Below, in pieces: positions 5,606 to 63,655 of a DNA stretch of 64,000 bases. Source of the stretch: an uncultured Bacteroidales bacterium (lineage in GTDB: Bacteria; Bacteroidota; Bacteroidia; Bacteroidales; Paludibacteraceae); NCBI GenBank assembly GCA_900320865.1, contig ONTT01000004.1, forward strand, positions 43,593 through 107,592. The letters run 5' to 3'. The position numbers were made by a program, and so were the translations under genes. The notes beneath the pieces are model-generated. The model searched no databases. It had not been told where the DNA came from and saw nothing but the letters and a program-made list of their open reading frames with translations. The stretch's first letter is position 1. Each line of letters begins with the position of its first letter.

Positions 5606-5612
5606 CAATGAT

Positions 5613-7214: not shown

Positions 7215-7219
7215 TAGCG

Positions 7220-47440: not shown

Positions 47441-49306
47441 ATGGATTTCAGATACGATGTGATAGTAGTTGGGGCCGGACATGCCGGTTGTGAAGCAGCG
47501 AGTGCTGCTGCCCGAATGGGCAGTAAGACCATGCTGATCACGATGGACATGAACAAGATTGCCCAGATGAGTTGCAATCCGGCAGTAGGCGGAATTGCGA
47601 AAGGCCAGATTGTGCGCGAGATTGATGCGCTTGGTGGACAAATGGGCATAGTAACAGACCGGAGTGCTATTCAATACAGGCTCCTCAACCAGAGTAAAGG
47701 TCCGGCCATGTGGAGTCCGCGTAGCCAAAGCGACAGAAAGCGGTTTATCGAAGAATGGGTGAAGGTTCTTTCGCACACGGAGAATCTGAATATCTGGCAG
47801 GATGTTGTAACCGGTCTTATTATCAAAGATAATAAGGTATGCGGTGTGAAGACAGCCTTAGGCATCGAGATGAAAGCCGAAGCGGTAGTACTGACCAACG
47901 GTACTTTTCTTAACGGACTGATGCACTGCGGTAAGACGCAGATAGCAGGGGGTAGAATATCTGAACCGGCTTCTTACGGGATCACCGAGCAACTGGTGGA
48001 ATTAGGCTTCAGATCGGACAGAATGAAAACAGGTACTCCGGCTCGTATAGATGCACGGTCTATTCATTTTGATGAGATGGTTCGTCAAGATGGCGATAAT
48101 GACTGGCATCAGTTCAGTTATCTGGATACAGTAAAAAGGGAGTTGAAACAAATGCCTTGTTGGATCACTTATACGAATCCCCAAACGCACGAAGCACTAC
48201 GTGCAGGATTGGCAGATTCTCCCCTTTTCAACGGTCAAATCAAGAGTATAGGTCCCCGCTATTGCCCGAGTATAGAGACAAAGATTGTTACGTTTGCCGA
48301 AAAAGACGCGCATCAACTTTTCCTGGAACCGGAGGGAGTAGACAGCAATGAATATTACGTAAACGGTTTCTCGAGCAGCCTGCCATGGCAAGTGCAGTTA
48401 GCGGGTTTGAAGACCGTGAAGGGTTTGGAAGATGTTGTGCTATATAGACCGGGCTATGCGATTGAGTACGACTTCTTCGATCCGACGCAACTGCATCACA
48501 CCTTAGAGACGAAACAGATTAAAAATCTGTTTTTCGCCGGACAGATCAATGGTACCACGGGTTATGAAGAAGCTGCAGGACAAGGTTTAGTAGCAGGAGT
48601 GAATGCCCATCTGAATGTACACGGAGGTACACCGTTTACGATGGGAAGAGATGAGAGTTACATCGGTGTGCTGATTGATGATTTGGTAAATAAGGGCGTA
48701 GATGAACCGTATCGTATGTTCACCTCGAGAGCGGAATACCGGATCTTATTGCGTCAGGATAATGCTGATGAGCGCCTAACGAAGAAGAGTTATGAGATGG
48801 GGTTGGCAGATCGAACGAGGTACGACTTATGGTGTCAAAAAGAGAAAGCATGTTCCGATTTCATCGGATTTATGCAGCAGACAGTTGTGCGTAAGGAAAG
48901 CATTGACGGATGGTTGGAATCGATTGGCAGTAATGCGCTACATGAAGGATGTAAGATCTGCGATTTGATTCTTCGTCCGCAAGTAACGATTCATGGTCTG
49001 GCGGAAGTAGTTCCGGAACTGAAGGCCCGGATGGAAGGTCTATCGGAGGAGATCATTGAGAGTTGCGAGATACAAATCAAGTACGCAGGGTATATAAAAC
49101 GCGAGCAGAACGAGGCGGCTAAGCTACAGCGCCTGGATCAAATACGTATTCCGGATGGGTTTAATTACGAGGAAGTACAGAGTTTAAGCACAGAGGCGAG
49201 ACAGAAGTTGAGCAGGATTCGTCCGAAGAGTATAGGGGAAGCACAACGCATACCCGGAGTGAGCCCGAATGACGTAAGTGTATTGCTTGTTTTGATGGGT
49301 AGATAA
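47441..49306 (+). CDS. mnmG: tRNA uridine-5-carboxymethylaminomethyl modification enzyme MnmG
   Basis: This 621-residue FAD enzyme works with MnmE to modify wobble uridine 34 in tRNA. It shows VIVVGAGHAGCEAASAAARMG, CNPAVGGIAKGQIVREIDALGG, the Cys/Arg-rich MKTGTPARID, FFAGQINGTTGYEEAAGQGLVAG and the C-terminal helical domain. mnmG (gidA) often lies near the replication origin, which agrees with the parS site just downstream. Confidence 0.97.
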   Translation: MDFRYDVIVVGAGHAGCEAASAAARMGSKTMLITMDMNKIAQMSCNPAVGGIAKGQIVREIDALGGQMGIVTDRSAIQYRLLNQSKGPAMWSPRSQSDRKRFIEEWVKVLSHTENLNIWQDVVTGLIIKDNKVCGVKTALGIEMKAEAVVLTNGTFLNGLMHCGKTQIAGGRISEPASYGITEQLVELGFRSDRMKTGTPARIDARSIHFDEMVRQDGDNDWHQFSYLDTVKRELKQMPCWITYTNPQTHEALRAGLADSPLFNGQIKSIGPRYCPSIETKIVTFAEKDAHQLFLEPEGVDSNEYYVNGFSSSLPWQVQLAGLKTVKGLEDVVLYRPGYAIEYDFFDPTQLHHTLETKQIKNLFFAGQINGTTGYEEAAGQGLVAGVNAHLNVHGGTPFTMGRDESYIGVLIDDLVNKGVDEPYRMFTSRAEYRILLRQDNADERLTKKSYEMGLADRTRYDLWCQKEKACSDFIGFMQQTVVRKESIDGWLESIGSNALHEGCKICDLILRPQVTIHGLAEVVPELKARMEGLSEEIIESCEIQIKYAGYIKREQNEAAKLQRLDQIRIPDGFNYEEVQSLSTEARQKLSRIRPKSIGEAQRIPGVSPNDVSVLLVLMGR

Positions 49307-49313
49307 GTGATTT

Positions 49314-49332
49314 TAGTTTGCAGAGCAAACTA
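49314..49332. terminator. Perfect 8-bp hairpin after mnmG
   Basis: TAGTTTGC (49314-49321) pairs with GCAAACTA (49325-49332) across an AGA loop. No T run follows, so it is a weak terminator or an mRNA 3'-end stabiliser; it lies 7 nt before parS. Confidence 0.5.
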
Positions 49333-49339
49333 CATTAAT

Positions 49340-49355
49340 TGTTCCACGTGAAACA
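49340..49355. promoter_or_regulatory. parS chromosome-partition site (ParB-binding)
   Basis: TGTTCCACGTGAAACA is a perfect match to the bacterial parS consensus TGTTNCACGTGAAACA. It sits in the 71-bp gap between mnmG and apt. parS sites are normally clustered near oriC and are bound by ParB/Spo0J. parA and parB are not in this window. Confidence 0.88.
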
Positions 49356-49377
49356 TTGACAACAAATAACGTATACT

Positions 49378-49917
49378 ATGACAGTAGAAGAAGTTAAAAA
49401 TGCTATTCGAAATGTGCCTGATTTTCCAATTCCGGGCATACAGTTCAAGGACATCACCACAGCGTTGGACAAACCGGAATGCCTGAAATGGATGCGGGAT
49501 GAAATGGTCCGTAGATATAAGAACCTGGGAATTACGCAAGTGGTAGGAATAGAGAGTAGAGGGTTTATTTTGGCTCCTGCCGTAGCAATGGAGATCGGTG
49601 CGGGATTTGTTCCCATCCGCAAGCCGAATAAATTACCGGCAGAAACGGTTTCTGTTACTTATGCCAAAGAATACGGAGAAGATGTAATCCAGATTCACAA
49701 AGACGCCTTGAACGAGAACGACGTAGTCCTTATTCATGATGATATATTGGCTACTGGAGGTTCGATGGCTGCTGCGATAGAGTTAGTTAAGAAATTGGGC
49801 GTAAAGAAGATATACGTAAACTGTTTGATCGAGTTAGAAGGTCTGCCCGGTAGAAAAGTATTATCCGAAGCAGGAGCCGAAGTGGACTGCCTGATGGGTA
49901 TAGAAGTAGATGAATAA
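49378..49917 (+). CDS. apt: Adenine phosphoribosyltransferase
   Basis: This 179-residue purine-salvage enzyme converts adenine and PRPP to AMP. It shows VPDFPIPGIQFKDITT, GIESRGFILAPAVA, FVPIRKPNKLPAET and the PRPP loop VVLIHDDILATGGSMAA. The start overlaps no neighbour; the stop overlaps uvrC by 8 nt. Confidence 0.97.
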   Translation: MTVEEVKNAIRNVPDFPIPGIQFKDITTALDKPECLKWMRDEMVRRYKNLGITQVVGIESRGFILAPAVAMEIGAGFVPIRKPNKLPAETVSVTYAKEYGEDVIQIHKDALNENDVVLIHDDILATGGSMAAAIELVKKLGVKKIYVNCLIELEGLPGRKVLSEAGAEVDCLMGIEVDE

Positions 49918-51727
49918 AAAAGATGATCATATTGCCCTATTATTGAAGCGTATTCCGGAGAGTCCGGGCGTGTACCAATACTTTGATAAGGATGGGCAGA
50001 TCATCTATGTAGGTAAGGCAAAGAATCTTCACAGGCGGGTAAACAGTTACTTCAACAAAGAGCATCAAAGCAGCAAGACGAGGCAGTTAGTAGCGCATAT
50101 TGCAGATATCAAATATGTGGTAGTTGCGAGTGAACAAGATGCCTTTCTGCTGGAGAATAATCTGATTAAGGAGTATCAACCGCGGTATAATATCTTACTA
50201 AAGGACGGAAAGAGTTATCCGAGTATCTGCATTACAAAAGAAGCTTTTCCAAGAATCTTTAAGACCCGAACTATCAATAAAAAGATCGGGGAATACTATG
50301 GACCGTACAGTTTCGGTAATACGGTTGAGATGGTATTGGAATTGATTCATAAGCTCTATCCAATACGAACTTGCAATATGCCATTAACCGCCGATTCCAT
50401 CGAGAAAAAGAAGGTACGGGTGTGTTTAAAATATCATTTGAAGAATTGCTGTGGGATCTGTGAAGGAAAAGGCAAAGAGGAGTATAGCGAATGGATAGAC
50501 CAAGCCAGAAAGTTGATCAAGGGAGATGCTCACGAGATCGGGAAGCAGTTAGAGGAACAGATGATGCGACTTGCAGTGGAGATGAAATATGAGGAAGCTG
50601 CTGACATTAAACACAAGATTGAGTTATTAGAGCAATTCAAAAGTAAGACAATTATCACGAATTCATCGGCAAAAGATGTGGATGTATTTGGTTATGACGA
50701 GCAAGACGACCGTGTATATATAAGTATGCTTCACGTCCATAACGGAAGTATCGTTCAGGGGCAGACAATCGAGTACAAACGGAAGATGGATGAGGCAAAG
50801 GAGGAGATTCTGGCTTTTGGTATGATGGAGTTGAGGCGGCAGTTAGAGAGCAACACCAAAGAGGTAATTGTTCCGTTCATTCCGGAGGTATTTGATGATA
50901 CATTGCATGTTAATATTGCGGTAAGCGGAGACAAGAAGAAATTGTTAGATTTGGCGATGCAGAATGTAAGGCAGTACAAATTAGACCGAATCAAACAGGA
51001 AGATAAACTGAATCCGGAACAAAGGGGAGTGAGGATATTGACCGAGATGCAGCAGCTGATGGGCTTACCTACTCTACCGAAATGGATTGATTGTTTCGAC
51101 AATAGTAACATACAAGGCACGAATGCAGTAGCCGGATGTGTAGTATATCGAATGGCCAAACCGAGTAAGAGTGATTACAAGCGATTTGAGATCAAAAGTG
51201 CGGATGGATCCGATGATTATTCGAGTATGCGAGAGGTGGTTCGGAGACGATATCAACACCTGATAGATGAAGGTGGGCAAATGCCGGATCTGATTATCGC
51301 GGATGGAGGTTTAGGTCAGATGCACGCGATACGAGAAGCGATAGAAGATCAATTGGGATTGCGTATTCCAATCGCGGGACTGAAGAAAAATGACAAACAT
51401 AGGACACAGACTTTGTTGTTCGGTTTTCCGCCACAGGAGATTAGCATGCCTGTGACGAGTGAAGTTTTTCGGCTATTGACGAATATTCAGGACGAAGTAC
51501 ATCGTTTTGCGATTACATTCCACAAGCAAAAACGCAGTAAAGCACTGATACACAGCGAGTTAGATGAAATTAAAGGCGTTGGTCCTGTCACAAAACAGAA
51601 AATTTTAACGCATTTTGGGTCCGTGAAACGCGCCAGAACGGCCAGTAAAGAAGAAATGGTTGCTTTGCTCGGAAAGTCCTGTGGATCAGCAATTTACGAG
51701 CAATTACAGGCAAAAATAAGTCTCTGA
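49910..51727 (+). CDS. uvrC: UvrABC excinuclease subunit C
   Basis: This 605-residue nuclease makes both incisions in nucleotide-excision repair. The N-terminal GIY-YIG domain has SPGVYQYFDKDGQIIYVGKAKNL. A Cys-rich stretch (CLKYHLKNCCGICEGKG) follows, with a UVR motif around MAVEMKYEEAADIKHKIELLE (residues about 215-240). The RNase H-like domain has CFDNSNIQGT and PDLIIADGGLGQ, and the C-terminal helix-hairpin-helix is DEIKGVGPVTKQKILTHFGS. Confidence 0.97.
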   Translation: MNKKDDHIALLLKRIPESPGVYQYFDKDGQIIYVGKAKNLHRRVNSYFNKEHQSSKTRQLVAHIADIKYVVVASEQDAFLLENNLIKEYQPRYNILLKDGKSYPSICITKEAFPRIFKTRTINKKIGEYYGPYSFGNTVEMVLELIHKLYPIRTCNMPLTADSIEKKKVRVCLKYHLKNCCGICEGKGKEEYSEWIDQARKLIKGDAHEIGKQLEEQMMRLAVEMKYEEAADIKHKIELLEQFKSKTIITNSSAKDVDVFGYDEQDDRVYISMLHVHNGSIVQGQTIEYKRKMDEAKEEILAFGMMELRRQLESNTKEVIVPFIPEVFDDTLHVNIAVSGDKKKLLDLAMQNVRQYKLDRIKQEDKLNPEQRGVRILTEMQQLMGLPTLPKWIDCFDNSNIQGTNAVAGCVVYRMAKPSKSDYKRFEIKSADGSDDYSSMREVVRRRYQHLIDEGGQMPDLIIADGGLGQMHAIREAIEDQLGLRIPIAGLKKNDKHRTQTLLFGFPPQEISMPVTSEVFRLLTNIQDEVHRFAITFHKQKRSKALIHSELDEIKGVGPVTKQKILTHFGSVKRARTASKEEMVALLGKSCGSAIYEQLQAKISL

Positions 51728-51734
51728 GAATTGA

Positions 51735-52199
51735 ATGAAAAGCAAGAATATGGCTACTTATACGATAAAATTAGACGACAATTCCAACATTTTGTTGATG
51801 AATGAGAAAAATGAAACAGTTAGTGTATTGGACTTGTTGAAGGACCATGAGCCGCATCGTGTGTTTGCGTTCGACGGACAGATGGGGGCTGGTAAGACGA
51901 CGTTCATCAAGAAGTTATGCGAAGAGATGGGTACGCTGGATGTAGTGAACAGTCCGACATTTGCCATCGTGAACGTGTATGATGTGGAACGACCGTATAA
52001 GGGCGAGGTATATCATTTCGATTGTTACCGTCTGAAGGACATCCGTGAAGCGATGGATTTCGGAGCAGAGGAATATCTGTATTCGGGTAACTACTGTTTC
52101 ATCGAATGGCCGGAGATGATAGAGGCGCTTTTGCCGGAAGACACAGTATGGGTCAAGATTGAGCCGCAAGAAAACGGCAATCGATTATTGACGATTTAA
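51735..52199 (+). CDS. tsaE: tRNA threonylcarbamoyladenosine biosynthesis ATPase TsaE
   Basis: This 154-residue ATPase supports t6A37 formation together with TsaB and TsaD. It shows Walker A FDGQMGAGKTTFIKKLC near residue 48, SPTFAIVNVYD, and the Walker-B-like region EYLYSGNYCFIEWPEMIE. The ATG at 51735 may be upstream of the real start at 51750 (MATYTIKLDD). It follows uvrC by 7 nt and converges with the nuclease gene. Confidence 0.93.
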   Translation: MKSKNMATYTIKLDDNSNILLMNEKNETVSVLDLLKDHEPHRVFAFDGQMGAGKTTFIKKLCEEMGTLDVVNSPTFAIVNVYDVERPYKGEVYHFDCYRLKDIREAMDFGAEEYLYSGNYCFIEWPEMIEALLPEDTVWVKIEPQENGNRLLTI

Positions 52200-52209
52200 T
52201 GCAACTGCT

Positions 52210-53076
52210 TTACTTACGAGAAAGGGTCCAATCGGAAACGGAATAGGTGCTTTCGATTTGCGCTTCGAGGCTATCGGGCAGATTATAGAAGAAATCAATG
52301 CCAGTTTGCGCTTCGACTTCGTCTACGGAGAGCATATAGGTCATTAAAGGACGGTTGCCGGCTTGGTTAGGCATAATAAATCCGATAGTAGTCCATCCTT
52401 GGCGCGTTTGGCGGAGAAAGACTTTATAGAAAGCAGAGGGGACAGCAATCAAATGATTCTTTCCGATAGTCGGATAATCGGCTTCTACAATAGGTCCGCA
52501 AGCGATATAGATGTTTCCGTACAGCTGCGCCCAATCACGCGCTAATTCCTCCAGATCTTTCCAATCCCCGGCATTGAGGCTATGTAACTGCGGGCACATA
52601 TTCGTCATGTAAAAACTCTCGCGCATGGCTTGATCGGACCATTTCATATCTGCGGCAGGAGCCATGTGTCCACGATCATAGCCGGAATTGGCATAGTCGC
52701 CAGTTACGACCGGGTCTCCGTTTACCAAAGGATCCGGTTTGAAATGGTTCTTGCGCTCTTGCTCTCCGCTTGTCTCCGCGTTTGTTAATTCATAAGCGAC
52801 CCAGTTAGGCACGAGCCAATCGGGGTTGTAGCTAACCGTGTAGCCAAGATGCCGGATGACCTGTTCGGGCTGGTTGTTGACCAAGCGAGGCAGTTCGTAA
52901 GGAAGCGAGGATTCTGTAGTGGCGTGAGTTGTTTCCACAAGAGCCGCAGCGGCCACAGTAGTGGGAGCGGCTTTCTCCTCAGAGGTTGTGATCAGTTCTG
53001 CGACCAAGGTAGCAATACCAATTAACACCAAGAGAATAATGGTGTATAGCGTATTCTTTTTTGACTTTTTACCCAT
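52210..53076 (-). CDS. Exported DNA/RNA non-specific endonuclease (NucA/EndA family)
   Basis: This 288-residue beta-beta-alpha-metal nuclease has a basic N-terminus (MGKKSKKN) followed by one hydrophobic segment (TLYTIILLVLIGIATLVAEL), so it is membrane-anchored or exported. The catalytic motif YDRGHMAPAADMKWS is near residues 134-148, followed by the metal-site Asn region NMCPQLHSLNAGDWKDLE. It may scavenge nucleic acids or degrade foreign DNA at the envelope. It has its own promoter and converges on tsaE. Confidence 0.92.
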   Translation of the reverse strand: MGKKSKKNTLYTIILLVLIGIATLVAELITTSEEKAAPTTVAAAALVETTHATTESSLPYELPRLVNNQPEQVIRHLGYTVSYNPDWLVPNWVAYELTNAETSGEQERKNHFKPDPLVNGDPVVTGDYANSGYDRGHMAPAADMKWSDQAMRESFYMTNMCPQLHSLNAGDWKDLEELARDWAQLYGNIYIACGPIVEADYPTIGKNHLIAVPSAFYKVFLRQTRQGWTTIGFIMPNQAGNRPLMTYMLSVDEVEAQTGIDFFYNLPDSLEAQIESTYSVSDWTLSRK

Positions 53077-53095
53077 ACTCAACAAAATTTCGTTG

Positions 53096-53127
53096 CAAAG
53101 GTACGAAAAAGTTTTGAATTGTGCAAG
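53096..53127 (-). promoter_or_regulatory. Promoter of the endonuclease gene
   Basis: On the minus strand CTTG (53127-53124) and TACCTTTG (53103-53096) are 20 bp apart. Transcription would start about 15 nt before the ATG at 53076. Confidence 0.65.
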
Positions 53128-53219
53128 AAAATGCCGTAAAAGGTGTGCTTTAGGAAACGAACGACGAGCCCATTTGGGTTAACACGTTGGTTGATTTTAT
53201 TGAGATGATGTCATTTATA

Positions 53220-53285
53220 ACCTACTAATCACCTACTAATAACCTACTAATCACCTACTATTTACCTACTAATCTTCTACTAAAG
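53220..53285. repeat. 11-bp tandem repeat (six units)
   Basis: Units based on ACCTACTAATC occupy 53220-53230, 53231-53241, 53242-53252, 53253-53263 and 53264-53274, with a decayed sixth unit at 53275-53285. The period of 11 is close to one helical turn. Confidence 0.85.
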
Positions 53286-53320
53286 ATACAATCGTGTATA
53301 GAAGGGGGAGTTGGGGCTTT

Positions 53321-53371
53321 CATTCTATTCTATTTTGTTTCATTCTATTCTATTCTATTCTATTTTGTTTT
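53321..53371. repeat. ATTCT-type pentanucleotide repeat
   Basis: CATTCTATTCTATTTTGTTT is followed directly by the same block expanded by two more TATTC units (53341-53370). The two blocks differ only in repeat number, a slipped-strand pattern. Confidence 0.8.
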
Positions 53372-53430
53372 GTATGGGAGAAAAAGAGAGAGAAAGAGTA
53401 TTAGCTGGCAAAAGTATTGCCCTGAAATAC

Positions 53431-53467
53431 GAAAAAAGAAAATGCGCAGCCTTTGGATGGCTGCGCA
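53431..53467 (-). terminator. Rho-independent terminator of the TerB-channel-AAA operon
   Basis: On the minus strand TGCGCAGCC (53467-53459) pairs perfectly with GGCTGCGCA (53451-53443) across a 7-nt loop, followed by a T-rich run (complement of 53431-53442). It lies 30 nt past the last gene of the operon. Confidence 0.88.
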
Positions 53468-53497
53468 CTTAACGAAATAAGGGAGAGGGAGAAATTA

Positions 53498-53725
53498 TCA
53501 ATTATCAAAGCAAATTTTGCATGGTCGACGTCCAGCCTTTTCTGCCTTTTCTTTCGTGGTTGCAACTACTGAACTGCTACAACGAGAGAGCCCACGACAA
53601 TTAGGTGTTTTGTGATAGCAAGCACTTTTACTTCCTTGGCATACATACACTTTAGGAGCATCGCATACAGCCGTAGTTGTAGCGAGAGAGAGCAAGAAAA
53701 ATAAGGAAATTAGAAATCGTTTCAT
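53498..53725 (-). CDS. Small exported Cys-rich protein with YHx4C...PCxxC motif
   Basis: This 75-residue protein has a clear signal peptide (MKRFLISLFFLLSLATTTAVC). The mature part has VYVCQGSKSACYHKTPNCRGL and ends in GRRPCKICF. The pattern Tyr-His-x4-Cys-x2-Leu followed by Pro-Cys-x2-Cys is one I know from small modules attached to secreted nucleases and envelope proteins, probably metal-binding. As a stand-alone protein its role is unknown. Its start overlaps the AAA+ gene by four bases, so it is the last gene of that operon. Confidence 0.75.
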   Translation of the reverse strand: MKRFLISLFFLLSLATTTAVCDAPKVYVCQGSKSACYHKTPNCRGLSRCSSSVVATTKEKAEKAGRRPCKICFDN

Positions 53726-56001
53726 ACTATATCTTCTTTCTCTATAGCCGAAAGTCGTTCTATTGTTAAGTTACTTTGCGACGCAAGGCGATTAGCTTGA
53801 TGTTCCAATGCCTTTTCAAAGACATTACGCACAAAACGACCATTGCCAAAGTTTACATCCTTATTAGCAACCGCATTCTCTAAGTATTGTTGAAGTACTT
53901 CTTTTGCTCCTTCTCCGAAATGATAGTCATACTTGCGCATGTTGACTTCGAAGATTTGTAATAACTCTTCTGCGGTGTAATCAGGGAATTCAATATATCG
54001 GTTGAAACGCGATTGCAAGCCCGGATTTGAGTCGATAAAACGTTTCATATCTGCAGTATAGCCAGCAAGAATAACTACCAATCTATCGCGGTCATCTTCC
54101 ATCCGCTTGAGCAATGTAGCAATTGCCTCTTTACCGAAATCGTTTTGACCTCCATCGACAAGAGAATAAGCCTCATCTATGAATAATATGCCATCTAATG
54201 CACTATCAATAATTTTGTTGGTCTTTACTGCTGTTTGTCCGACATATTCTGCGACAAGACCAGCACGGTCGGTTTCTACCAGATGTCCCTTCTTCAGAAC
54301 GCCTAATTCCTTGTATATGCCAGCCACAATGCGTGCAACGGTTGTTTTACCGGTACCCGGATTACCTGTAAAGACACAATGATAGGACAAAGATGACGAT
54401 TTTAGTCCTTGTTCCTCTCGTTTCTGCTGAATTTTGATAAAGTTCGTTAGCGTCTGGACCTCTTTCTTAACAGAAGCAAGTCCAATGAGAGAATCTAGTT
54501 CGCTTTTAGGCGCAGCACCCGCTTTCTTGCGAGATCTGGATTTAGAATCACTCAAACGCGCCAATATGTCGTTCAATTGTTCATGATCTTTAACAAGCAC
54601 ATCGTGCCCTTCAGGACCTTTATTTGGACCATATATACCGGCACTCTCCAATTGGTCTGCTATCTTTCCTGCACGGTTGTAACCAATTTCAAACTTTCGT
54701 TGAATCTGCGCAACAGATCTCTCTTGTTTATCGACCACAAACTTTGCCACATCAATAAATAATGGGTCATAAGAATCAGGTAGAACAATGTCTTCGGTTT
54801 TTTTTACTGGTTCAGAAGGCTTGTTCGTGGTAATCACGGCCGGTTCCTCTATATTTTCTTTCTCTGTGGCAGCAGTTCCTAATGCCTCTTGGCCACGTAA
54901 CAGGCGAATTACATCTCCTTCATTTTTCACAAGTACATTTCTCTTGTTGCCTACGACCTCAATAACGTGACATTTTTCTAAAATCTTCAATGCCTCCAGG
55001 ACTTTTCCACGACTTAGATTCATTTCGGCCTGAATATCTGAGATAATACATTTTTGTTTGTTGACGATGTATTGTCCGATTCCAACAACATCGTACGAAT
55101 TATATAAATGCCCCATTTCAAAGACGACATCCATTGTTGCAATTACATCCTTTGAGGTATCGACATTTTGATCTATGTCCTGTGCGCGATTTAAAAGGCG
55201 ACTTAAATATGCCGATTCTTGTTCTGTCACGACATCGTCCGCTTTTGCCGCTAAGGAAAGGAAACGATATAAAACAATCAGGTATTGCAACTGAATATCT
55301 CGATTATATGACTTCAGCAGGTCTGCAAAAACTAATTTGTCGGGATTATTCTTTTTATTAAAGATGTTATACGCCCCATTTATCAAATCCTCTGCCGGCT
55401 TAATGGTTTCATCCTTCATTAGTTTCAGCATGCCAAACTCAACATCTTCATTGGAATTGAGAGCATTGACGGCTAAAAACACTGCCAAGCCTTCTTTAGA
55501 TTTCATATCCATCGAACTTCCCATTCCGACAAGAGCCGTTTTAATATCTGACAAAATCATATAAGTTGATAACTTATACGAATCAGTTTTAGCAGAGATG
55601 GCTATGTTTTGTTGATCTAACCATTGGTAAAAGCCGTTCGATATCAAATAGACAAGAAATCCATTTATTGACGAAATCGTATCTTTAATTCCCTTAAAAG
55701 AATCTTCACTTATCTTTGTTTCAAAATAGTTAGGCAAAGCAGCTATGCGTTCTGCTTCTCTTTTATGACGTCTTGCGTCTATATCGTCATATTCTGATGT
55801 GTTTTGACTTGTACTCGGACGAAGAGCATAATATGCAATTATTATAAGTAGGCAAATGAATGCAAAAACAGCACTAATTAATGCGCCCGTTATCTCTTCA
55901 TTTGATATTGCGATAAAGACACCAGGTGCAAAAATGAGGAATAAAACCCATACAGTTGCGATGCCACCTCCGCCTTTTGTTTTGCGATAACGATATGCCA
56001 T
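53722..56001 (-). CDS. Membrane AAA+ ATPase (CbxX/SpoVK type) with TerB-like and two FtsK-gamma-like domains
   Basis: The protein has 759 residues. Two TM segments lie at about 15-32 and 40-60. A helical TerB-like region follows (about 100-270, LYRFLSLAAKADDVVTEQES). Two winged-helix modules like the FtsK gamma domain are at about 300-360 and 408-472; the second has YDPLFIDVAKFVVDKQE and RKFEIGYNRAGKIADQLE. The CbxX/CfqX-type AAA+ domain (502-759) has Walker A GNPGTGKT (546-553) and Walker B ILFIDEA (605-611). FtsK gamma reads DNA sequence in FtsK, so DNA binding at the membrane is plausible. The function is unknown. A sampled line at 55801 is only 33% GC, well below neighbours. Confidence 0.82.
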   Translation of the reverse strand: MAYRYRKTKGGGGIATVWVLFLIFAPGVFIAISNEEITGALISAVFAFICLLIIIAYYALRPSTSQNTSEYDDIDARRHKREAERIAALPNYFETKISEDSFKGIKDTISSINGFLVYLISNGFYQWLDQQNIAISAKTDSYKLSTYMILSDIKTALVGMGSSMDMKSKEGLAVFLAVNALNSNEDVEFGMLKLMKDETIKPAEDLINGAYNIFNKKNNPDKLVFADLLKSYNRDIQLQYLIVLYRFLSLAAKADDVVTEQESAYLSRLLNRAQDIDQNVDTSKDVIATMDVVFEMGHLYNSYDVVGIGQYIVNKQKCIISDIQAEMNLSRGKVLEALKILEKCHVIEVVGNKRNVLVKNEGDVIRLLRGQEALGTAATEKENIEEPAVITTNKPSEPVKKTEDIVLPDSYDPLFIDVAKFVVDKQERSVAQIQRKFEIGYNRAGKIADQLESAGIYGPNKGPEGHDVLVKDHEQLNDILARLSDSKSRSRKKAGAAPKSELDSLIGLASVKKEVQTLTNFIKIQQKREEQGLKSSSLSYHCVFTGNPGTGKTTVARIVAGIYKELGVLKKGHLVETDRAGLVAEYVGQTAVKTNKIIDSALDGILFIDEAYSLVDGGQNDFGKEAIATLLKRMEDDRDRLVVILAGYTADMKRFIDSNPGLQSRFNRYIEFPDYTAEELLQIFEVNMRKYDYHFGEGAKEVLQQYLENAVANKDVNFGNGRFVRNVFEKALEHQANRLASQSNLTIERLSAIEKEDIV

Positions 56002-56002
56002 A

Positions 56003-56734
56003 TTATTCTCCTTTCTTTTTCTTGTTCTCTCTTAATTCTTCCAAATAACTTGCAGTAATTACGCCGGAAGGAAGCGCAATCACAGCTACGCCCAAAATAG
56101 CAGAGAACATGCTAATAACTCGTCCTAAATCTGTGGAGGGATAAATATCTCCGTAGCCGACTGTTGTCAACGTAGTTGTTGCCCAATAGAGTGCGTCAAA
56201 GAAATCTTCAAACATAGCAGACTCCTCAACGTTAAACATAATCAATGCAGTAACAACAATGTAGGCAATCGCTATCAAGAATACAGTAAACAAGATATGG
56301 CGCTCTTTATGCAGCACTTTTAATAATATCTGCATGTTTTCCGAATAGCGCACAAATCGAAAGATACGTAAGATTTTAAGTAAGCGTGTGACACGTAACA
56401 GTTTGAATGCGCGGTTGAAGAGCGAGAACGACGGAAGGATAGACAATAAATCTACAATAGCAAACGGAGTTATAGGATAGAGCAAAAACGCTTTCCATTT
56501 TGCCGTCTTCGTTAATTTATAATCCGCTGTAAGCCAACGAAGTAGATAATCTACAATAAAGACACTAACCGAGATCCTATCTAACCATAGAAGAGTTGTC
56601 GTCTGCTCGCGGAATGCAAGAGGTACAAGGCTGATGACGATAAACACCAACATTGACCAATCGTAGATTTTACTGATTATAGAGTGGCTCTCTGTCTCTA
56701 CTATATCAAATATGCGTTTGCGCCAATCGTTCAT
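56003..56734 (-). CDS. Voltage-gated-type potassium channel
   Basis: This 243-residue six-TM channel subunit has an Arg/Lys-rich S4-like segment near residues 110-130 (FKLLRVTRLLKILRIFRFVR), a pore helix and the K+ selectivity filter TTLTTVGYGDIYP near 195. The short C-terminal cytosolic tail ends in ELRENKKKKGE with no ligand-binding domain. It opens one base before the AAA+ gene and overlaps the TerB-like gene by four bases, so all are co-translated. In a chromosomal setting it could regulate membrane potential; in this operon it may be an effector (inference). Confidence 0.9.
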   Translation of the reverse strand: MNDWRKRIFDIVETESHSIISKIYDWSMLVFIVISLVPLAFREQTTTLLWLDRISVSVFIVDYLLRWLTADYKLTKTAKWKAFLLYPITPFAIVDLLSILPSFSLFNRAFKLLRVTRLLKILRIFRFVRYSENMQILLKVLHKERHILFTVFLIAIAYIVVTALIMFNVEESAMFEDFFDALYWATTTLTTVGYGDIYPSTDLGRVISMFSAILGVAVIALPSGVITASYLEELRENKKKKGE

Positions 56735-57198
56735 TTCTTTGCAACTTTATTCACAATATTCGTGTATTCATCAAAACCCAAGCCAAACACACCTTGCAAG
56801 TCGCTTTGATGCAAGGCTTCTTGCTCATCAATAATGTTGTCGGCATACAATTTTTCCAATTGTCGAACGATAATAGATTCTACTCGTGCAAACTTATTAT
56901 TCTTTTGGAAATCGCCCTCTTCTATACGGAAGAATAGTTTGAGCATCTTGAGATTTCTCAATTCGTCGGGTGTCAGGACGTCGTCCTCTAAGATAATGTC
57001 TGCGTAATCCAATAATACATCAAGTGTTTTCTCCTTGATGTCTGTAATACGACGGATATCTTTTTCAGCCAGCACTTTGTCAAGTGCAAGCGAACTCATC
57101 TGGCCATCCATAATCAATTGCAGGGCCGTCTTAATGACTTCCGGATATTCTTTGCGCGTGATTAATTCTTGCGCGGTTTCTTGAATAGTTGTTTTCAT
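56731..57198 (-). CDS. TerB-like helical protein
   Basis: This 155-residue soluble, mostly helical protein has no signal peptide or TM segment. The centre (DYADIILEDDVLTPDELRNL, then KMLKLFFRIEEGDF) has the acidic, helix-start pattern of TerB/tellurite-resistance domains, which are often paired with channels and AAA+ ATPases in stress systems. The identity is tentative. It is the first gene of the operon, 20 nt after a T run that may act as a terminator in the leader. Its stop overlaps the channel gene by four bases. Confidence 0.6.
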   Translation of the reverse strand: MKTTIQETAQELITRKEYPEVIKTALQLIMDGQMSSLALDKVLAEKDIRRITDIKEKTLDVLLDYADIILEDDVLTPDELRNLKMLKLFFRIEEGDFQKNNKFARVESIIVRQLEKLYADNIIDEQEALHQSDLQGVFGLGFDEYTNIVNKVAKK

Positions 57199-57217
57199 TG
57201 TATATTAGGTCGCACAT

Positions 57218-57412
57218 AAAAAGTGGGCAATGATTTGCTCACACTGTGGCTGTAGGAAAAGGCCTTGAGAAAAGCAAGTCACGCCCACACAATCGTGGAC
57301 GTTCACGACTTGTCTCTTATTCTCAGTGAAACTTCCTACATTTCAGTGTTAAAAGACAAATAGCAAACGCTATAATTTCAATATGTCCATGCAGGGTTTT
57401 AAAACCTTTGCG
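57218..57412 (-). ncRNA. Structured leader RNA or 6S-like ncRNA with an alternative terminator
   Basis: From a strong promoter (57417-57448) the minus strand can form nested stems (plus-strand positions): 57362-67 with 57234-39; 57344-49 with 57241-46 (ACACTG/CAGTGT); 57333-40 with 57251-58 (TGTAGGAA/TTCCTACA); 57307-12 with 57275-80 (CAAGTC/GACTTG); 57295-300 with 57283-88. An internal bubble lies between the third and fourth. A rival stem pairs 57273-57288 with 57223-57239 (about 14 pairs) and ends in T5. The length and shape resemble 6S RNA; the rival stem resembles an attenuator. Neither identity is proven. Confidence 0.55.
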
Positions 57413-57416
57413 GGTG

Positions 57417-57448
57417 CAAAAGTACAACAAAAAAATGATATATGCAAG
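57417..57448 (-). promoter_or_regulatory. Promoter of the structured leader/TerB operon
   Basis: On the minus strand CTTG (57448-57445) and TACTTTTG (57424-57417) are 20 bp apart. Transcription would begin near 57412, about 214 nt before the first gene. Confidence 0.78.
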
Positions 57449-57474
57449 AAAAGGGGGATTTTTCTGCGAAAAAT

Positions 57475-57945
57475 GTCCAAATCCAATTTGGACGCAATGG
57501 ACAAAACTATGCCGATTGTCAATCGGCAGAATACGAAGAAGAGAGCTCGCCGGAATAGCGGCGAGGAGTGGACAGCAGGATGGAACGATACCAGCATATG
57601 ATGCCGGGGTAATAGACGAAAAGGCGCTGGATAATATCCAGCACAAGGAACAAACGTAACATCCGCATTGAGACCGAAGCGGGCGGGCGATGCGATAGCG
57701 AGACGCGAGGGCGAAGTAATCGTTCGAGCGAAGCGAGATAAGAATCGTCCTATCGCAGAGATAGGACACGAGCGGCTAATCCGCCTATGCCGCGAGTTAC
57801 ACAATAAAAAGAACGCGAGACACAGAAAAAGAAGAACACGGGCCGGACGACTCGCGAACTTAACGAAAGGGGCGCCGGAGAAAATCTCGGCAAATGGACG
57901 AAGGAGAATCCGGCATATGATGCCGGGGTAATGGACAAAGGAATA
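57475..57945. repeat. Array of perfect short hairpins with a 20-bp direct repeat
   Basis: No coding signal is seen. Perfect or near-perfect hairpins lie at 57475-57493 (8 bp), 57510-57528 (9 bp), 57546-57565 (7 bp), 57591-57607 (7 bp, one mismatch), 57626-57642 (7 bp), 57747-57767 (8 bp), 57874-57891 (7 bp, one bulge) and 57910-57926 (7 bp). The sequences differ between stems. A 20-bp block is repeated exactly at 57594-57613 and 57913-57932. Motifs like AATGGACAAAGG recur beside several stems (57495, 57608-57620, 57893, 57930). Confidence 0.75.
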
Positions 57946-57983
57946 AAAATAATTGCAGTAACTTCGGCTTTTTTGCTAAAAAT

Positions 57984-58015
57984 CTTGCAAATTTAGAAAA
58001 TTTGTAGTATTTTTG
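57984..58015 (+). promoter_or_regulatory. Promoter of the DUF3316-S41-BASS operon
   Basis: CTTG (57984-57987) and TATTTTTG (58008-58015) are 20 bp apart; the leader is about 17 nt. A TTG within the -7 box (58013) is not the start codon. It is almost identical to the promoter at 60832. Confidence 0.75.
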
Positions 58016-58036
58016 CAGCGAAATTACTGGGTATTT

Positions 58037-58933
58037 ATGAAACGGGGTATCGGTATACTGCTTATGATGCTTTGGGCGATGGGGGTTTGCGCGGAGAGCG
58101 AGCAAGCCACAGTTGCGCCGGCGGAGAGCGGGATAGCTGTGCCGGGAGAGAGCGGGACAGGTATGCCGGCTGAAAGCGTGGAGCATAGTTATGTGCTGAA
58201 GGCGAAAGTGGGAGGAGGATACCAATTGGATACCTATCTCAGTCCGTTGGGTTATAAGGGTTTGCAATTCGGTTTGGGTAGTGAGTGGTGGCAACCGTTT
58301 CGTCAAGACACGAAGTTAGGTAAAGCGGGTAAGTTAGTGAACTGGGAGCATGTAGGTAGAGCTGATATCGGTATGGCGAGATATATCAGTTCAGCGGGAT
58401 CGAATATGTTCTGGGGTTTTCAGATTGAGTGCGGTTGGGGTGCTTATTACCGCTGGAAATGGATAGAGGATCGTCTGCAGGTTTTTGTGGGACCCTATTT
58501 AGAAGGTTGTTTTGCAGCGCGATATCATGCGAATAATGTGAATAAACCGCTTTCGTTCGATGTTGCCATAGATGCTATGGCGATGGGAGGGATTAGTTGG
58601 TCGTTTTACGGAAAGAAAACGAGTTATCGGCTGCAATATACGGTACGAACGAACCTGATTGGTTTTGATTATTTGCCGGAATACGGAGAGTCGTACTATG
58701 AGATCACGGAGGGCGTTCCGGCTGTAGCACGTTGTTCCGGACATTGGAATCATCATACGGTAGAACATGACTTGAGTTTCGACATGCAGTTCCCCCACAC
58801 CACTTGGCGTATTGGAGCGGAACATTATTTTGTGTATTACAATACGAAATATATGCATTTTATGCGCAATCAGATATGCCTGGTGGTAGGTTGCTGCTGG
58901 AAGTACAAGACACGCGCTAACGCACGCTTATGA
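58037..58933 (+). CDS. Envelope protein, DUF3316-like
   Basis: This 298-residue protein has a signal peptide (MKRGIGILLMMLWAMGVCA). A short Pro/Glu/Ser-rich stretch repeats ESG (PAESG, PGESG, PAES), and a beta-rich body follows, with GQ-like strands such as YRLQYTVRTNLIGFDYLPEYGESYYEI and a Cys-rich end (VVGCCWKYK). The aromatic pattern suggests an outer-membrane barrel of the DUF3316 group, which has no known function. It overlaps the S41 gene by four bases. Confidence 0.65.
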   Translation: MKRGIGILLMMLWAMGVCAESEQATVAPAESGIAVPGESGTGMPAESVEHSYVLKAKVGGGYQLDTYLSPLGYKGLQFGLGSEWWQPFRQDTKLGKAGKLVNWEHVGRADIGMARYISSAGSNMFWGFQIECGWGAYYRWKWIEDRLQVFVGPYLEGCFAARYHANNVNKPLSFDVAIDAMAMGGISWSFYGKKTSYRLQYTVRTNLIGFDYLPEYGESYYEITEGVPAVARCSGHWNHHTVEHDLSFDMQFPHTTWRIGAEHYFVYYNTKYMHFMRNQICLVVGCCWKYKTRANARL

Positions 58934-59955
58934 TCATACGAAGAATCATACGATACGGATTGATGGGAATGCTGGCAGGATGGATTCTGACGGCGTGTCA
59001 TTCGAGTGAGGAGATGTCTTATTCGACCGATCCCGTGGAGAACGTAGAGGCGTTATGGCAGATTATCGACACCCGGTATTGCTATATTGAGGAAAAGGGG
59101 ATTGACTGGAATGCCATTCATGAGGAGTATATCGCGAAAGCAGAGATGTTGGAGAAGACAGATCCGGTAGCACTTTTCGATCTATGCGCCGGGATGTTAG
59201 ACTCGTTGCACGATGGACATGTGAATCTCTATACACCTTTTGATGTTTCGCATAGCACGGCTTGGTACGATACGTTTCCGGCTAATTATAATTCGCAGAT
59301 CCAGGCGATGTATATGCAGAATTATCGAGTGGCAGGCGGGTTATACTACTGCACGATAGCCAATGACAGTATCGGGTATATCTATTATTCGAGCTTCTCG
59401 AGCGGTTTTTCGAACAGTAATATATACTGGATTTTCACGGCGTTTAAAGACTGCAAGGGGTTGATAATAGACGTACGGAATAATGGAGGAGGAGATTTAA
59501 CCAATGCGTATAAGTTAGCTTCGCCTTTCTTTACAGAGGATCGTCTGGTGGGTTATTGGCAACATAAGACGGGTCCCGGGCATACTGATTTCTCGGAGTT
59601 GGAGGAGTTACATGCAGACGCTTCGCTGGTAGGAAGTAAATGGCTTCGACCGACGGTAGTGCTATGTAATCGAAGAAGTTATTCGGCCACGAACAGTTTT
59701 GTGAATATGATGCGGTATGCGGATCATGTGCTTTTAGTTGGCGGCACAAGCGGAGGAGGTGGAGGAATGCCGATGAGTTATGAGATGCCGTGCGGATGGA
59801 CCGTTCGTTTCTCGAGCGTACGGATGTATGATGCGGACAAGAAGGATATCGAAGAGGGTATTGAACCGGATGTGAAAGTGACGATGGTAAGTACGGATAA
59901 GGACGATATCATCGAGAAAGCGATAGAGTTAATAGAAAACGACCTGAAGCAATGA
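58930..59955 (+). CDS. S41-family peptidase lipoprotein
   Basis: This 341-residue protein has a lipoprotein signal (GMLAGWILTAC, Cys near 23). The N-terminal helical part (EALWQIIDTRYCYIEEKGIDW) is typical of Bacteroidota S41 proteases. The peptidase core has GLIIDVRNNGGGDLTNA, then NRRSYSATNSFVN with the nucleophile Ser, and GGTSGGGGG. A PDZ domain is not obvious. It is probably an envelope serine protease of the C-terminal-processing type. It overlaps both neighbours by four bases. Confidence 0.87.
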   Translation: MIIRRIIRYGLMGMLAGWILTACHSSEEMSYSTDPVENVEALWQIIDTRYCYIEEKGIDWNAIHEEYIAKAEMLEKTDPVALFDLCAGMLDSLHDGHVNLYTPFDVSHSTAWYDTFPANYNSQIQAMYMQNYRVAGGLYYCTIANDSIGYIYYSSFSSGFSNSNIYWIFTAFKDCKGLIIDVRNNGGGDLTNAYKLASPFFTEDRLVGYWQHKTGPGHTDFSELEELHADASLVGSKWLRPTVVLCNRRSYSATNSFVNMMRYADHVLLVGGTSGGGGGMPMSYEMPCGWTVRFSSVRMYDADKKDIEEGIEPDVKVTMVSTDKDDIIEKAIELIENDLKQ

Positions 59956-60827
59956 ATACCATTTTTATCGTTTTGCCGATACTGACACTACTGATGTTCG
60001 ACTTGGGTTTGGTGCTCCAACCTCAGGATTTTCGTCTTATCGCTTCTCGTCCCAAGCCGGTATTGATTGGTCTTGTTGGACAGATTATTCTTCTGCCGTT
60101 AGTAGCATGGGGAATTGTATATTTGCTTTCATTTATCCATCCCCTGTCGCCGTTGTTTATCATCGGACTGATGCTGGTAGCCTGTTGTCCGGGAGGTAGT
60201 TCGAGTAACGTGTTTTCGATGTTAGCGAAGGGTGATGTGGCGTTATCTGTTACGCTTACTGCTTTTAGCAGTATCATTACTCTTTTCACATTACCGCTTA
60301 TCATGGCGTGGGTGACGAAGGGTGTAGGAGAAGCGGTCAATATTCATCTGCCGATAGGGAAACTGCTGATACAAAATATCGTATTGATGGTTGTTCCGAT
60401 TTCAATCGGATTTGTGCTGAATATTTTCCGTCCAGCCGCTGCGGCTCGTGTGCATAATGTTTTGCGGCGTATTGCGATGCCCGCTTTGCTACTGCTCATC
60501 ACTATTTTCTTCTTTCAGCATAAACAGACCATTGTAGCTGAGATGGGATCGTTAGGTCTCACGATGACAGCCCTTATCATCGCTACGACGGGTTGCGGTG
60601 CGCTGTTATCATGGGCTTTTGGGTTAACGACCAAGGAACGTCGTACGTTAGTGATTGAGATTGGTATGCAAAACGCGGCACAAGCGATCACGATAGCTTG
60701 CAGTCCACTTATCTTCGCCAATGAGATTATCGCCATTCCGGCTATCATCTATGCGCTTATGATGAATCTGATTCTTTTGGCCTATGTCGGCTTGGCGAAA
60801 TGGCAGAATCGATTATTTTTTTGCTAA
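59952..60827 (+). CDS. BASS-family (bile acid:Na+ symporter-like) transporter
   Basis: This 291-residue inner-membrane protein has eight to ten hydrophobic segments, the family motif LVACCPGGSSSNVFSMLAKGDVALSVTLTA near residue 75, and a late EIGMQNAAQAITIA. The family moves organic anions with Na+; the substrate here is unknown. The last codons (FFC, stop) are part of the repeated promoter block at 60816-60864. Confidence 0.9.
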   Translation: MNTIFIVLPILTLLMFDLGLVLQPQDFRLIASRPKPVLIGLVGQIILLPLVAWGIVYLLSFIHPLSPLFIIGLMLVACCPGGSSSNVFSMLAKGDVALSVTLTAFSSIITLFTLPLIMAWVTKGVGEAVNIHLPIGKLLIQNIVLMVVPISIGFVLNIFRPAAAARVHNVLRRIAMPALLLLITIFFFQHKQTIVAEMGSLGLTMTALIIATTGCGALLSWAFGLTTKERRTLVIEIGMQNAAQAITIACSPLIFANEIIAIPAIIYALMMNLILLAYVGLAKWQNRLFFC

Positions 60828-60831
60828 AAAT

Positions 60832-60863
60832 CTTGCAAATTTAAAAAAATTGTAGTAATTTTG
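60832..60863 (+). promoter_or_regulatory. Promoter of the hydrolase-lolD-gldB operon
   Basis: CTTG (60832-60835) and TAATTTTG (60856-60863) are 20 bp apart; the leader is about 18 nt. The block from 60823 to 60864 repeats 57975-58016 with three mismatches. Confidence 0.78.
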
Positions 60864-60885
60864 CGCCGCAAAGGTTTTTTCGTAT

Positions 60886-61971
60886 ATGTGGGGAAAACGA
60901 ATGATAGGATTGAGTCTGCTGATGGCAGTCGTATGGACGATAAGTCGGGCTACGGAACAGGTAGTTCTTTATCCGTCTGTGGACCAGTTTGGTAAGCCGA
61001 TCGAGTTATCGGGTCGGTTGACTGCTCCTGCGGATTCGGCGAGAGGTATCATGCTATTGCTGCACGGGACCCATACGGCCAATAATGAAGCGCCGTCCAA
61101 TAAGCCGATGTACGAAGAGCGTTGGTTCGGTAAGGACTATGTATTGGTGATGCCCGATTATATGGGTTACGGCGCCACGCAAGACAGTATTCATCCGTAT
61201 CTATGCGGCGAGTTCACCGCGCGCCATTGTGTAGATATGCTGTTGGCGGTACGGCCGATGTTGGACACGATGGCTGTGAAGATAGAAACCGACAGCATTA
61301 TCATCTTTGGTTTTTCGCAAGGTGGAGCAACTGCGGTTTGGTGCCTGAAGTTATTGGAAGAACGCTATGCGGAACAATTGCCCGTGAAAGCCTGCTATGC
61401 CGGAGGTGGTCCGTATGATGTGGCATCGGAGTTTGACCATTGCGTACAGAAAAATAAAACGGGTATGCCGGTAACTATTCCGATGCTGGTTTTGGGTACA
61501 GACATGGCCTATCAGTTAGGTCTGGACACGAAAGATTATTTCACAAAGGCAACTGAGAAAATAGATAAACGATTCGTACGGGAGAAGAAGCAAGGTTTTG
61601 TAAGCGTTTGGTTTAGGACTCCGGTTCATCTGTTGAGTCATTGGTTAAGCAAGAAGGGGCGGGATAAGAGCCAACCGGCTACGCAGCGTATTTACGAGGG
61701 ATTGTTACGCTCGAGTTTGGTGCATTATCCGATTGATGACCATCCGGTAGGGCAAGAGATTATCTGTCCGAGTTGGCGACCGAAAGCAAAGACGTATATC
61801 TTCCATTCGACGAATGACAATGTGGTCGGATTTCATAATTCGGAGCATCTGCGGCGCTGTTGGGGAGAGCTGGAGAACGTACGATATGAGTTCGACAAAT
61901 TCGGCTCCCATATGAAATCCTATCAACGGTTTTCGAAAACTGCATGCAAGGAGTTGGGAATTGGGGAATAA
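60886..61971 (+). CDS. Exported alpha/beta hydrolase
   Basis: This 361-residue protein has a signal peptide ([15 protein letters not shown]). The fold shows an oxyanion-side [19 protein letters not shown], the nucleophile elbow GFSQGGATA (Ser near 145), a candidate acid in STNDNVVGF and a candidate His in GSHMKSY. It resembles secretory lipase or cutinase-like esterases; the substrate is unknown. An ATG at 60901 is a possible alternative start. It overlaps no gene but lies 19 nt before the ABC ATPase start. Confidence 0.82.
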
Positions 61972-61990
61972 AAGTGGAAAGTGGATAGTT

Positions 61991-62641
61991 ATGATAGAAG
62001 TTAAAAACATACACAAATCGTTTGGTGATTTGGAGGTACTGAAGGGTGTGAACCTGGAGGTTAAGAAAGGCGAGATCGTAGCGATCATCGGCAAGAGCGG
62101 AGCCGGTAAGACTACCCTACTCCAGATCATCGGTACATTAGATCGTCCGACGAAGGGTCAGGTGCTGATGGACGGAACGGATGTGTTTACGATGAAAGAC
62201 CGTGAGTTAGCGGCTTTCCGCAACAAACATATCGGGTTCATCTTCCAGTTCCATCAGTTATTACCGGAGTTCACGGCATTGGAGAACGTATGTATTCCGG
62301 CCATGATTGCGCGTGAGAAAGAAACGGACTATAAACCGAGAGCGGAGAAGTTACTGCGCGAGTTGGGTTTGGCGGAACGCATGGATCACAAGCCGAATGA
62401 GTTATCGGGCGGAGAGAAACAGCGTGTAGCCGCAGCGAGAGCGTTGATGATGGCACCGGATATCATTCTGGCGGATGAACCGACCGGTAGTCTGGACACG
62501 CAGAACAAGAAAGAGTTAAGTGCGCTGTTGCTGCAATTGCGCAAGGAATACGGACAGACGATATTGCTGGTCACGCATGATAAAGAGTTAGCAGGGATAG
62601 CCGACCGGACGATAGAAATCGTAGATGGAAAAATTAAGTAA
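61991..62641 (+). CDS. ABC transporter ATP-binding protein, LolD-like
   Basis: This 216-residue ATPase starts at [19 protein letters not shown] (61991), since a longer upstream start would run into the hydrolase gene's end. Walker A is [12 protein letters not shown], the Q-loop [10 protein letters not shown], the signature LSGGEKQR and Walker [10 protein letters not shown]. The sequence is of the LolD/MacB type for lipoprotein release or macrolide export, but no permease lies beside it here. gldB follows after 3 nt. Confidence 0.9.
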
Positions 62642-62644
62642 GAC

Positions 62645-63649: not shown

Positions 63650-63655
63650 GAAAAC

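Follow-up and report, generated by a model that had tools for sequence, protein, structure and literature searches.

The operon and its neighbour in the window

The 64,000-nucleotide stretch analysed here (the window; G000:C42:43593-107592) comes from an uncultured Bacteroidales bacterium of the Paludibacteraceae, whose genome (G000) is assembled in 65 contigs and is 82.65% complete. On the minus strand of the window lies an operon of four genes in the order TerB-like, K+ channel (Kch), AAA+ and Cys gene, spaced by -4, +1 and -4 nucleotides (nt). They encode a soluble TerB-like protein of 155 residues (56731..57198), a Kv-type K+ channel of 243 residues with six transmembrane (TM) segments (56003..56734), a membrane-anchored CbxX/SpoVK-type AAA+ ATPase of 759 residues (53722..56001) and a small, probably exported Cys-rich protein of 75 residues (53498..53725), the first and the last being called from their open reading frames (ORFs). 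The transcript ends in an intrinsic terminator (53440..53470), a minus-strand hairpin running from 53470 to 53440 with 12 pairs and a T-rich tail (TCTTTTTTCG). The operon starts 219 nt downstream of a promoter-like site on the same strand, TTG-N20-TACTTTTG (57417..57447), found by its match to TTG-N20-TAnnTTTG, the promoter consensus of Bacteroidota; comparable sites lie upstream in five of eight other loci tested. Further along the minus strand, 421 nt behind gene 4, is a gene for an Endonuclease_NS nuclease of the EndoG/NucA type (52210..53076), preceded by a pattern match to the same consensus, TTG-N20-TACCTTTG (53096..53126).

The GC content of the operon is 0.396, compared with 0.455 for the whole window, and equally long stretches avoiding the operon, sampled in 100-nt steps, never fell below 0.426. 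Simple repeats (53206-53370) lie on the downstream side and four minus-strand hairpins (57281-57565) on the upstream side. A first-pass annotation made from the letters alone had described just these traits, namely four overlapping or nearly touching genes with one shared terminator, low GC relative to the neighbours, and simple-sequence DNA and a hairpin array on opposite flanks, and each was recovered.

A Kv-type channel and a TerB-like gene found only beside it

The product of gene 2 matches the Pfam families Ion_trans (2.4e-29) and Ion_trans_2 (9.5e-18), and its nearest solved relatives are the Kv2.1 and KCNQ channels. The filter TTVGYGD and the S4 charges R114, R117, K120, R123 and R129 do not vary among six aligned sequences, that of the window being one. 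With an Ion_trans fold, a charged S4 and a TVGYGD filter all present, the protein is assigned on its sequence as a Kv-type K+ channel. Relatives scoring above 400 bits were found in 16 of 91 genomes of the genus (among 150 searched), and two more, in the relatives G903 and G869, were found later. A K_chan_RES match in L042 was discarded; it scored under the gathering threshold and lay inside the channel coding sequence.

The TerB-like gene is confined to the company of this channel. Five of the 150 genomes, G000 included, carry a relative directly upstream of the channel, and a sixth copy was found in G903; all six adjoin the channel and none was found elsewhere. The G903 protein used as a query against plasmids gave no match. 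The name given to gene 1 at first pass fared less well: the Pfam model for TerB (PF05099) does not match the window protein and stayed under its cut-off in all six aligned members (window included), with only a sub-threshold match in the G903 member (E 0.022), so that 'TerB' is a weakly founded name. Homology between this protein and the TerB-like region inside the AAA+ protein was looked for and not found (hhalign probability 3.1).

The fourth gene does not travel with the others. The Cys protein has one N-terminal hydrophobic segment in a simple hydropathy scan, no Pfam match and a best NCBIfam match at E 0.15. Weak relatives occur in four of the 150 genomes besides G000, and none of the other operons contains the gene. 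Co-occurrence in other genomes, suggested as a check at first pass, was thus found for the TerB-like protein, the channel and the AAA+ protein, and the Cys gene drops out of the set.

An FtsK gamma domain on a CbxX-type ATPase

The AAA+ protein matches AAA, AAA_lid_6 and FtsK_gamma in Pfam, the last (PF09397, 1.8e-18; 66.5 bits against a cut-off of 30.6) over residues 410-470 (54592..54774). It reads, from the N terminus, two TM segments (residues 14-32 and 37-55 in a simple hydropathy scan), a TerB-like region whose signature was judged by eye, a gamma-like winged helix in degenerate form (hhalign probability 84.8, E 6.6e-6), the FtsK gamma domain, AAA and AAA_lid_6. The AAA and AAA_lid_6 core is intact, with Walker motifs, and places the protein in the CbxX-type superfamily; solved relatives are CbbX and EccA1. 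It shares this core with SpoVK, CbbX and EccA and differs from them in its added membrane anchor and DNA-binding domains and in falling under all three equivalog cut-offs (NCBIfam TIGR02881, 323.7 bits against 422.95; TIGR02880, 240.9 against 459.25). With the FtsK translocase it shares a gamma domain with a near-identical recognition stretch; it differs in its ATPase, which is of the AAA CbxX/SpoVK type, and the FtsK motor domain is absent from the 19 Pfam families listed for it at E up to 10.

The gamma domain is 61% identical over 76 columns to that of FtsK from its own genome, and in the 20-residue recognition stretch (FEIGYNRAGKIADQLESAGI) 17 residues are identical to host FtsK. The corresponding comparison within each relative's genome gave 18 of 20 in G003 and G041, 20 of 20 in G055 and G021, and 17 of 20 in G007. 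If differences were randomly spread, the chance of so few in the stretch would be 0.0078 for G000, 0.0012 for G003, 0.0019 for G041, 0.0003 for G055, 0.00007 for G021 and 0.28, not significant, for G007, values that must be read with the stretch also forming the core of the gamma fold. The first-pass description of a membrane AAA+ protein with DNA-reading domains agrees with a stretch nearly equal to that of host FtsK, and we infer that the domain binds the host's KOPS. The gammas of the AAA+ proteins form one branch (support 0.96), for which a single capture from a related FtsK is the simplest explanation. An FtsK-like 'moron' family in PHROGs also matches the domain (6.6e-14).

AAA+ proteins with gamma were found in six genomes of one genus, five among 178 genus genomes plus the truncated G041, and every copy lies at the channel; among 393 genomes of the order only G000 has one, in a search that scored at most five candidates per genome. 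G052 carries an AAA protein without gamma at a place separate from its channel. No plasmid or annotated phage record covers 80% of the AAA+ protein, the best rows listed covering 49% and 34%. In plasmids the closest match, 69.5% identical to the AAA domain of the window protein, is an AAA gene that stands alone in Bacteroides finegoldii (NZ_OY725927.1, 38311-39981); the ATPase family extends beyond the operon.

A nuclease with a predicted membrane anchor belongs with the set

The nuclease matches PF01223 (1.2e-55), and among solved structures its relatives are EXOG, EndoG and bacterial nucleases. Its DRGH motif and H137, N168 and E176, whose catalytic roles we take to be those of NucA, are invariant in all five aligned sequences, window included. 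One N-terminal hydrophobic segment follows a Lys-rich start, which suggests a membrane-anchored protein with its catalytic domain facing the periplasm. The GC content of the window gene is normal (0.489). The gap between the AAA+ and nuclease genes is 9 nt in G003, 7 in G007, 1 in G055, -4 in G021 and 12 in G903; that is, the nuclease follows the channel/AAA+ pair in all five relatives readable on that side, the contig of G041 ending before this point. The gene set is therefore larger than four genes, and the nuclease, missed at first pass, belongs with it as the most regular downstream partner. In the genus the nuclease occupies 24 places in 23 genomes, of which 20 were read and four were not; it adjoins a channel or is part of this operon at 7 of these 20, and also in G903 and G869.

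The set is patchy and variably composed

The operons of relatives are variations on the same parts. G003 has the order TerB-Kch-AAA-Nuc, as does G000 with its additional Cys gene, and the spacing from TerB to Kch (-4) and from Kch to AAA (+1 nt) is the same in both. G007 reads TerB-Kch-x-AAA-Nuc-HxsADBC, and G055 and G021 read Kch-AAA-Nuc-HxsADBC, with one 79-residue ORF between Nuc and HxsA in G021. G903 has Nav-TerB-Kch-AAA-Nuc, and Nav-Kch-Nuc is found in G869 and in G068, where the nuclease is cut; the channels of the latter two are identical. Contig ends leave TerB-Kch-AAA in G041 and TerB-Kch in G078, and in G073 the nuclease adjoins a Nav/Cav-type channel without Kch. A conserved core locus, the outcome against which the first-pass annotation had set its reading, can be dismissed: with a gamma-bearing AAA+ protein in just 5 of 178 genus genomes, the set is accessory and no conserved housekeeping operon.

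In a tree of 19 channels, and likewise in one of 22 nucleases, an 'in operon' label had to change five times (the incomplete nuclease of G068 and the four places not read are absent from the nuclease tree, which scores G073 as in operon). Shuffled labels gave values as low in 69 of 500 cases for the channel and 50 of 500 for the nuclease, so the test does not stand out. In G869 the nuclease groups with those of G000 and G003 and the channel with those of G055 and G007, at modest tree support, and from these discordant groupings the set appears to have been reassembled. The operon of G003 is at another place, near a match to window 5123-7693. The flanks 49013-52177 and 61990-63647 are about 9.8 kb apart in the window; about 1.4 kb separates them in G079, an interval that includes a comEC-type gene. 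Flanking genes picked by eye included HEPN-MNT in G055, a Schlafen AlbA_2 gene in G007, WYL, DEDDh and PIN genes in G903 and ORF6N in G021; those of three relatives (G055, G007 and G903) are defence-like. Overall, the set is patchily distributed in some animal-gut bacteria and appears to have been reassembled.

Relatives of the channel in phages

The channel matches a PHROGs family (5e-38), and ten phage records carry relatives that are 27-45% identical. Six of these records were opened, and in three the channel relative lies between repressor and integrase. In Dulem virus 33 it overlaps an Xre regulator by 4 nt near the integrase, in PLE2 it stands between an HTH regulator/metalloprotease and the integrase, and Efs 1-1-1, an unverified and unannotated record whose ORFs were named by eye, shows the arrangement of PLE2. 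Intervals between repressor and integrase are where many prophages keep superinfection-exclusion genes, and the Kv-type channels at these places (L249:5687-6714; L250:3034-4612; L252:3352-6676) are possible genes of this kind. An Acinetobacter phage record with a channel relative resembles host chromosome, and no gene order was taken from an unannotated Listeria fragment. The idea that the system itself is borne by phages or plasmids was rejected, given the AAA+ coverage above and the lack of relatives in viral contigs (see below).

Nav/Cav-type channels and the His-Xaa-Ser system as extensions

Nav/Cav-type channels with a TIEGW filter share an operon with the Kv-type channel at L206:5661-7631 (G903), L089:474-2016 (G068) and L229:6587-8129 (G869), and the two channels are possibly an excitable pair. 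A second pairing, in which an Ion_trans protein of 569-570 residues adjoins a Nav/Cav-type channel, occurs at L231:3332-5900 (G080) and L234:5833-8321 (G905), and in G006 (L235:5475-9268) a Nav/Cav-type channel is followed by a 1000-residue TPR-CHAT protein. Nav/Cav-type channels were found in 44 of 131 genus genomes searched, with no match in the window genome.

The genes following the nuclease in G007 encode a His-Xaa-Ser (HXS) radical-SAM system: HxsB (563.5 bits), HxsC (339.9) and HxsD (63) are all over their cut-offs, and HxsA (54.4 bits, cut-off 121.65) falls under its own, with the repeats and a peptidoglycan-binding domain present. For G055 and G021 the HXS genes were recognised from their resemblance to those of G007 and by an HxsB search. 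HxsB is over its cut-off in 6 of the 150 relatives, five of them in the genus, and in 1 of 395 class genomes; the window genome, at its 82.65% completeness, has a best score of 32.5 bits against a cut-off of 370. The probability of the observed co-occurrence (three genomes shared among 5 and 6 of 91) is 0.0016 in a calculation that ignores shared descent. G144, which belongs to a different taxonomic family, has no channel there, but a convergent member of this nuclease family adjoins its HxsADBC genes. HXS was rejected as the general partner: three HXS plasmids that were read list no channel or nuclease beside it (their gene table is incomplete), and on a Mesorhizobium plasmid that has hxsB as well as an AAA gene about 9 kb separates the two.

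Leaders and repeats

The operon leader (57199-57420) folds far better than its shuffles (z -4.72); it is not common to G003 and matches no Rfam family, and a structured RNA search of 48000-64000 found none over threshold. G007 (L042:6325-6643) and G078 (L091:1139-1457) have a long, near-identical 5' leader before the TerB-like gene, upstream of which their DNA differs. Between the terminator and the nuclease, 53206-53293 has an 11-nt period with six overlapping copies (ACCTACTAATC). A 30-nt direct repeat (57591-57620 and 57910-57939, 90% identical) is perhaps a dispersed intergenic repeat.

Discussion

We tentatively favour, as a plausible though less than probable reading, that the operon is an accessory, modular response to events at the envelope or to DNA entry, with a RexAB-like logic and extra parts, belonging to a Paludibacteraceae-type genus. 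Where gamma is present, the AAA+ protein would use it to sense double-stranded DNA at the inner membrane; alternatively it would detect another sign of infection through its TerB-like and variable N-terminal parts. It would spend ATP to remodel the channel and the TerB-like protein, and the resulting K+ flux would shift the membrane potential such that the cell is protected, or halted along with the infection. The nuclease would cut DNA crossing the periplasm, and some relatives would supplement these parts with a Nav/Cav-type channel or the His-Xaa-Ser peptide system. The first-pass proposal that the AAA+/TerB part senses DNA or stress and the channel acts as effector gains indirect support from the channel relatives in repressor-integrase regions of phages and from the defence-like flanks of three relatives, the window not among them. 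A bolder and unlikely version is a DNA-gated bioelectric immune module. Here the AAA+ protein, with a KOPS-reading domain borrowed from host FtsK, would tell self from foreign or misplaced DNA and set the Kv channel; the Nav/Cav and Kv pair of relatives would be able to spike, the periplasm-facing nuclease would destroy incoming DNA, and temperate phages would use related channels in their immunity regions.

In published accounts, RexA opens RexB once it has been activated by a complex of phage DNA and protein (PMC7542560), and lambda RexAB and its relatives (Sbash gp30/31, CarolAnn gp43/44) resemble what we propose in having an infection- or DNA-triggered sensor that switches an inner-membrane ion channel (PMC6426606, PMC7542560). 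The parts differ: no homology was seen, and the set here, which combines an AAA+ ATPase with a Kv-type K+ channel and a nuclease, is chromosomal with no phage genes recognised beside it. Neither the operon proteins nor the nuclease matched RexA or RexB at E up to 10 in Pfam, which presumably contains Rex models. TerB (PF05099) is listed for both Shango and Bunzi (PMC10952713). Neither system was among the PADLOC matches of the five proteins at E up to 1, in a library whose inclusion of both models is unconfirmed. We know of no channel or exported nuclease in either. Among the papers that literature searches listed, none treats this gene set in its title or abstract, which is weak evidence of novelty with most subscription papers and preprints outside the reach of the searches.

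Several findings weigh against an envelope/DNA-entry response. The flanks of the window and of G003 show no defence-like genes; three viral-contig scans (one single-sequence query, two alignments) found no relatives of the AAA+, channel or TerB-like proteins; and PADLOC gave no match for the channel or the nuclease, weak AAA-domain matches for the AAA+ protein and a weak AbiEi match (E 0.019) for the TerB-like protein. The identity of the phage channels is only what distant Kv channels would show, and Humcor1 carries its relative elsewhere than between repressor and integrase. The AAA+ protein of G903 has no gamma, which is therefore an add-on. In the window the terminator separates the nuclease from the operon and the gene has a promoter-like site to itself, and the nuclease is apart at 13 of the 20 read places, four of them between apparent housekeeping genes (named by eye). 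The channel has no partner on its readable sides in G030, G026, G037, G015, G019, G079, G087 and G052 of the genus and in the order-level G093 (for G037 and G019, whose contigs start just upstream of the channel, only the downstream side counts, and the G052 contig is 5.8 kb), and the cases of adjacency partly reflect one descent (G000/G003; G007/G055/G021; G068/G869). Finally, and in contrast to RexB, a K+ channel is expected to hyperpolarise the membrane and not to kill the cell; since its effect would be hyperpolarisation or repolarisation, the response may shield the membrane potential from injection and not lead to suicide.

The shared operons of Nav/Cav-type and Kv genes, the second channel pair of G080 and G905 and the frequency of Nav/Cav-type channels in the genus speak for a bioelectric or ion-homeostasis module, in which the channels set or signal the potential, the AAA+ and TerB-like proteins serve as channel chaperones or cation sensors, and the nuclease trims extracellular DNA of biofilm or food. 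Such a module has no need of an FtsK gamma domain, finds no Nav/Cav-type match in the window genome and fits less well with the patchiness, the three defence-like flanks and the repressor-integrase relatives; we regard it as possible but doubtful. Slightly more doubtful is that mobile accessory genes merely collect in shared variable spots, with TerB-like/channel and channel/AAA+ as the only real functional pairs. The scattered nucleases, the nine solitary channels, tree label changes not clearly fewer than shuffled, and the normal GC and own promoter-like site of the window nuclease favour loose linkage; reading-frame overlaps and gaps of 1-12 nt in several loci, and a nuclease that adjoins the channel across differently composed operons (Kch-Nuc, AAA-Nuc, Nuc-Nav), argue for a tighter association.

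Two further explanations are less likely. HxsA-D-B-C after the nuclease in three genomes, and the nuclease beside HxsADBC in G144, would suit an antagonism cassette in which the cell exports nuclease and His-Xaa-Ser peptide to attack competitors while the channel and AAA+ protein protect the producer. This is quite unlikely: the window genome lacks an HxsB over cut-off, the nuclease looks anchored in the membrane and not released, and no immunity protein was recognised. Least probable is a segregation or division checkpoint, in which trapped DNA would prompt the AAA+ protein to act on the membrane, with gamma reading KOPS (or XerD) of the host itself at the septum; the recognition stretch, nearly that of host FtsK, speaks for it, but division does not need a protein found in only 5 of 178 genus genomes, and the channel, the nuclease and the gamma-less G903 are left without explanation.

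If the envelope/DNA-entry reading is right, foreign DNA that comes in across the membrane may be what this unusual set protects the cell from. Within the set an FtsK gamma domain serves in a protein other than a translocase, and the little-understood His-Xaa-Ser peptide system gains a genomic partner. Few roles are known for bacterial voltage-gated channels, and a Kv channel tied to a DNA-reading ATPase and an exported nuclease, together with Nav/Cav-type channels in relatives, provides a concrete case in which a part played by membrane electricity in defence or signalling can be tested.

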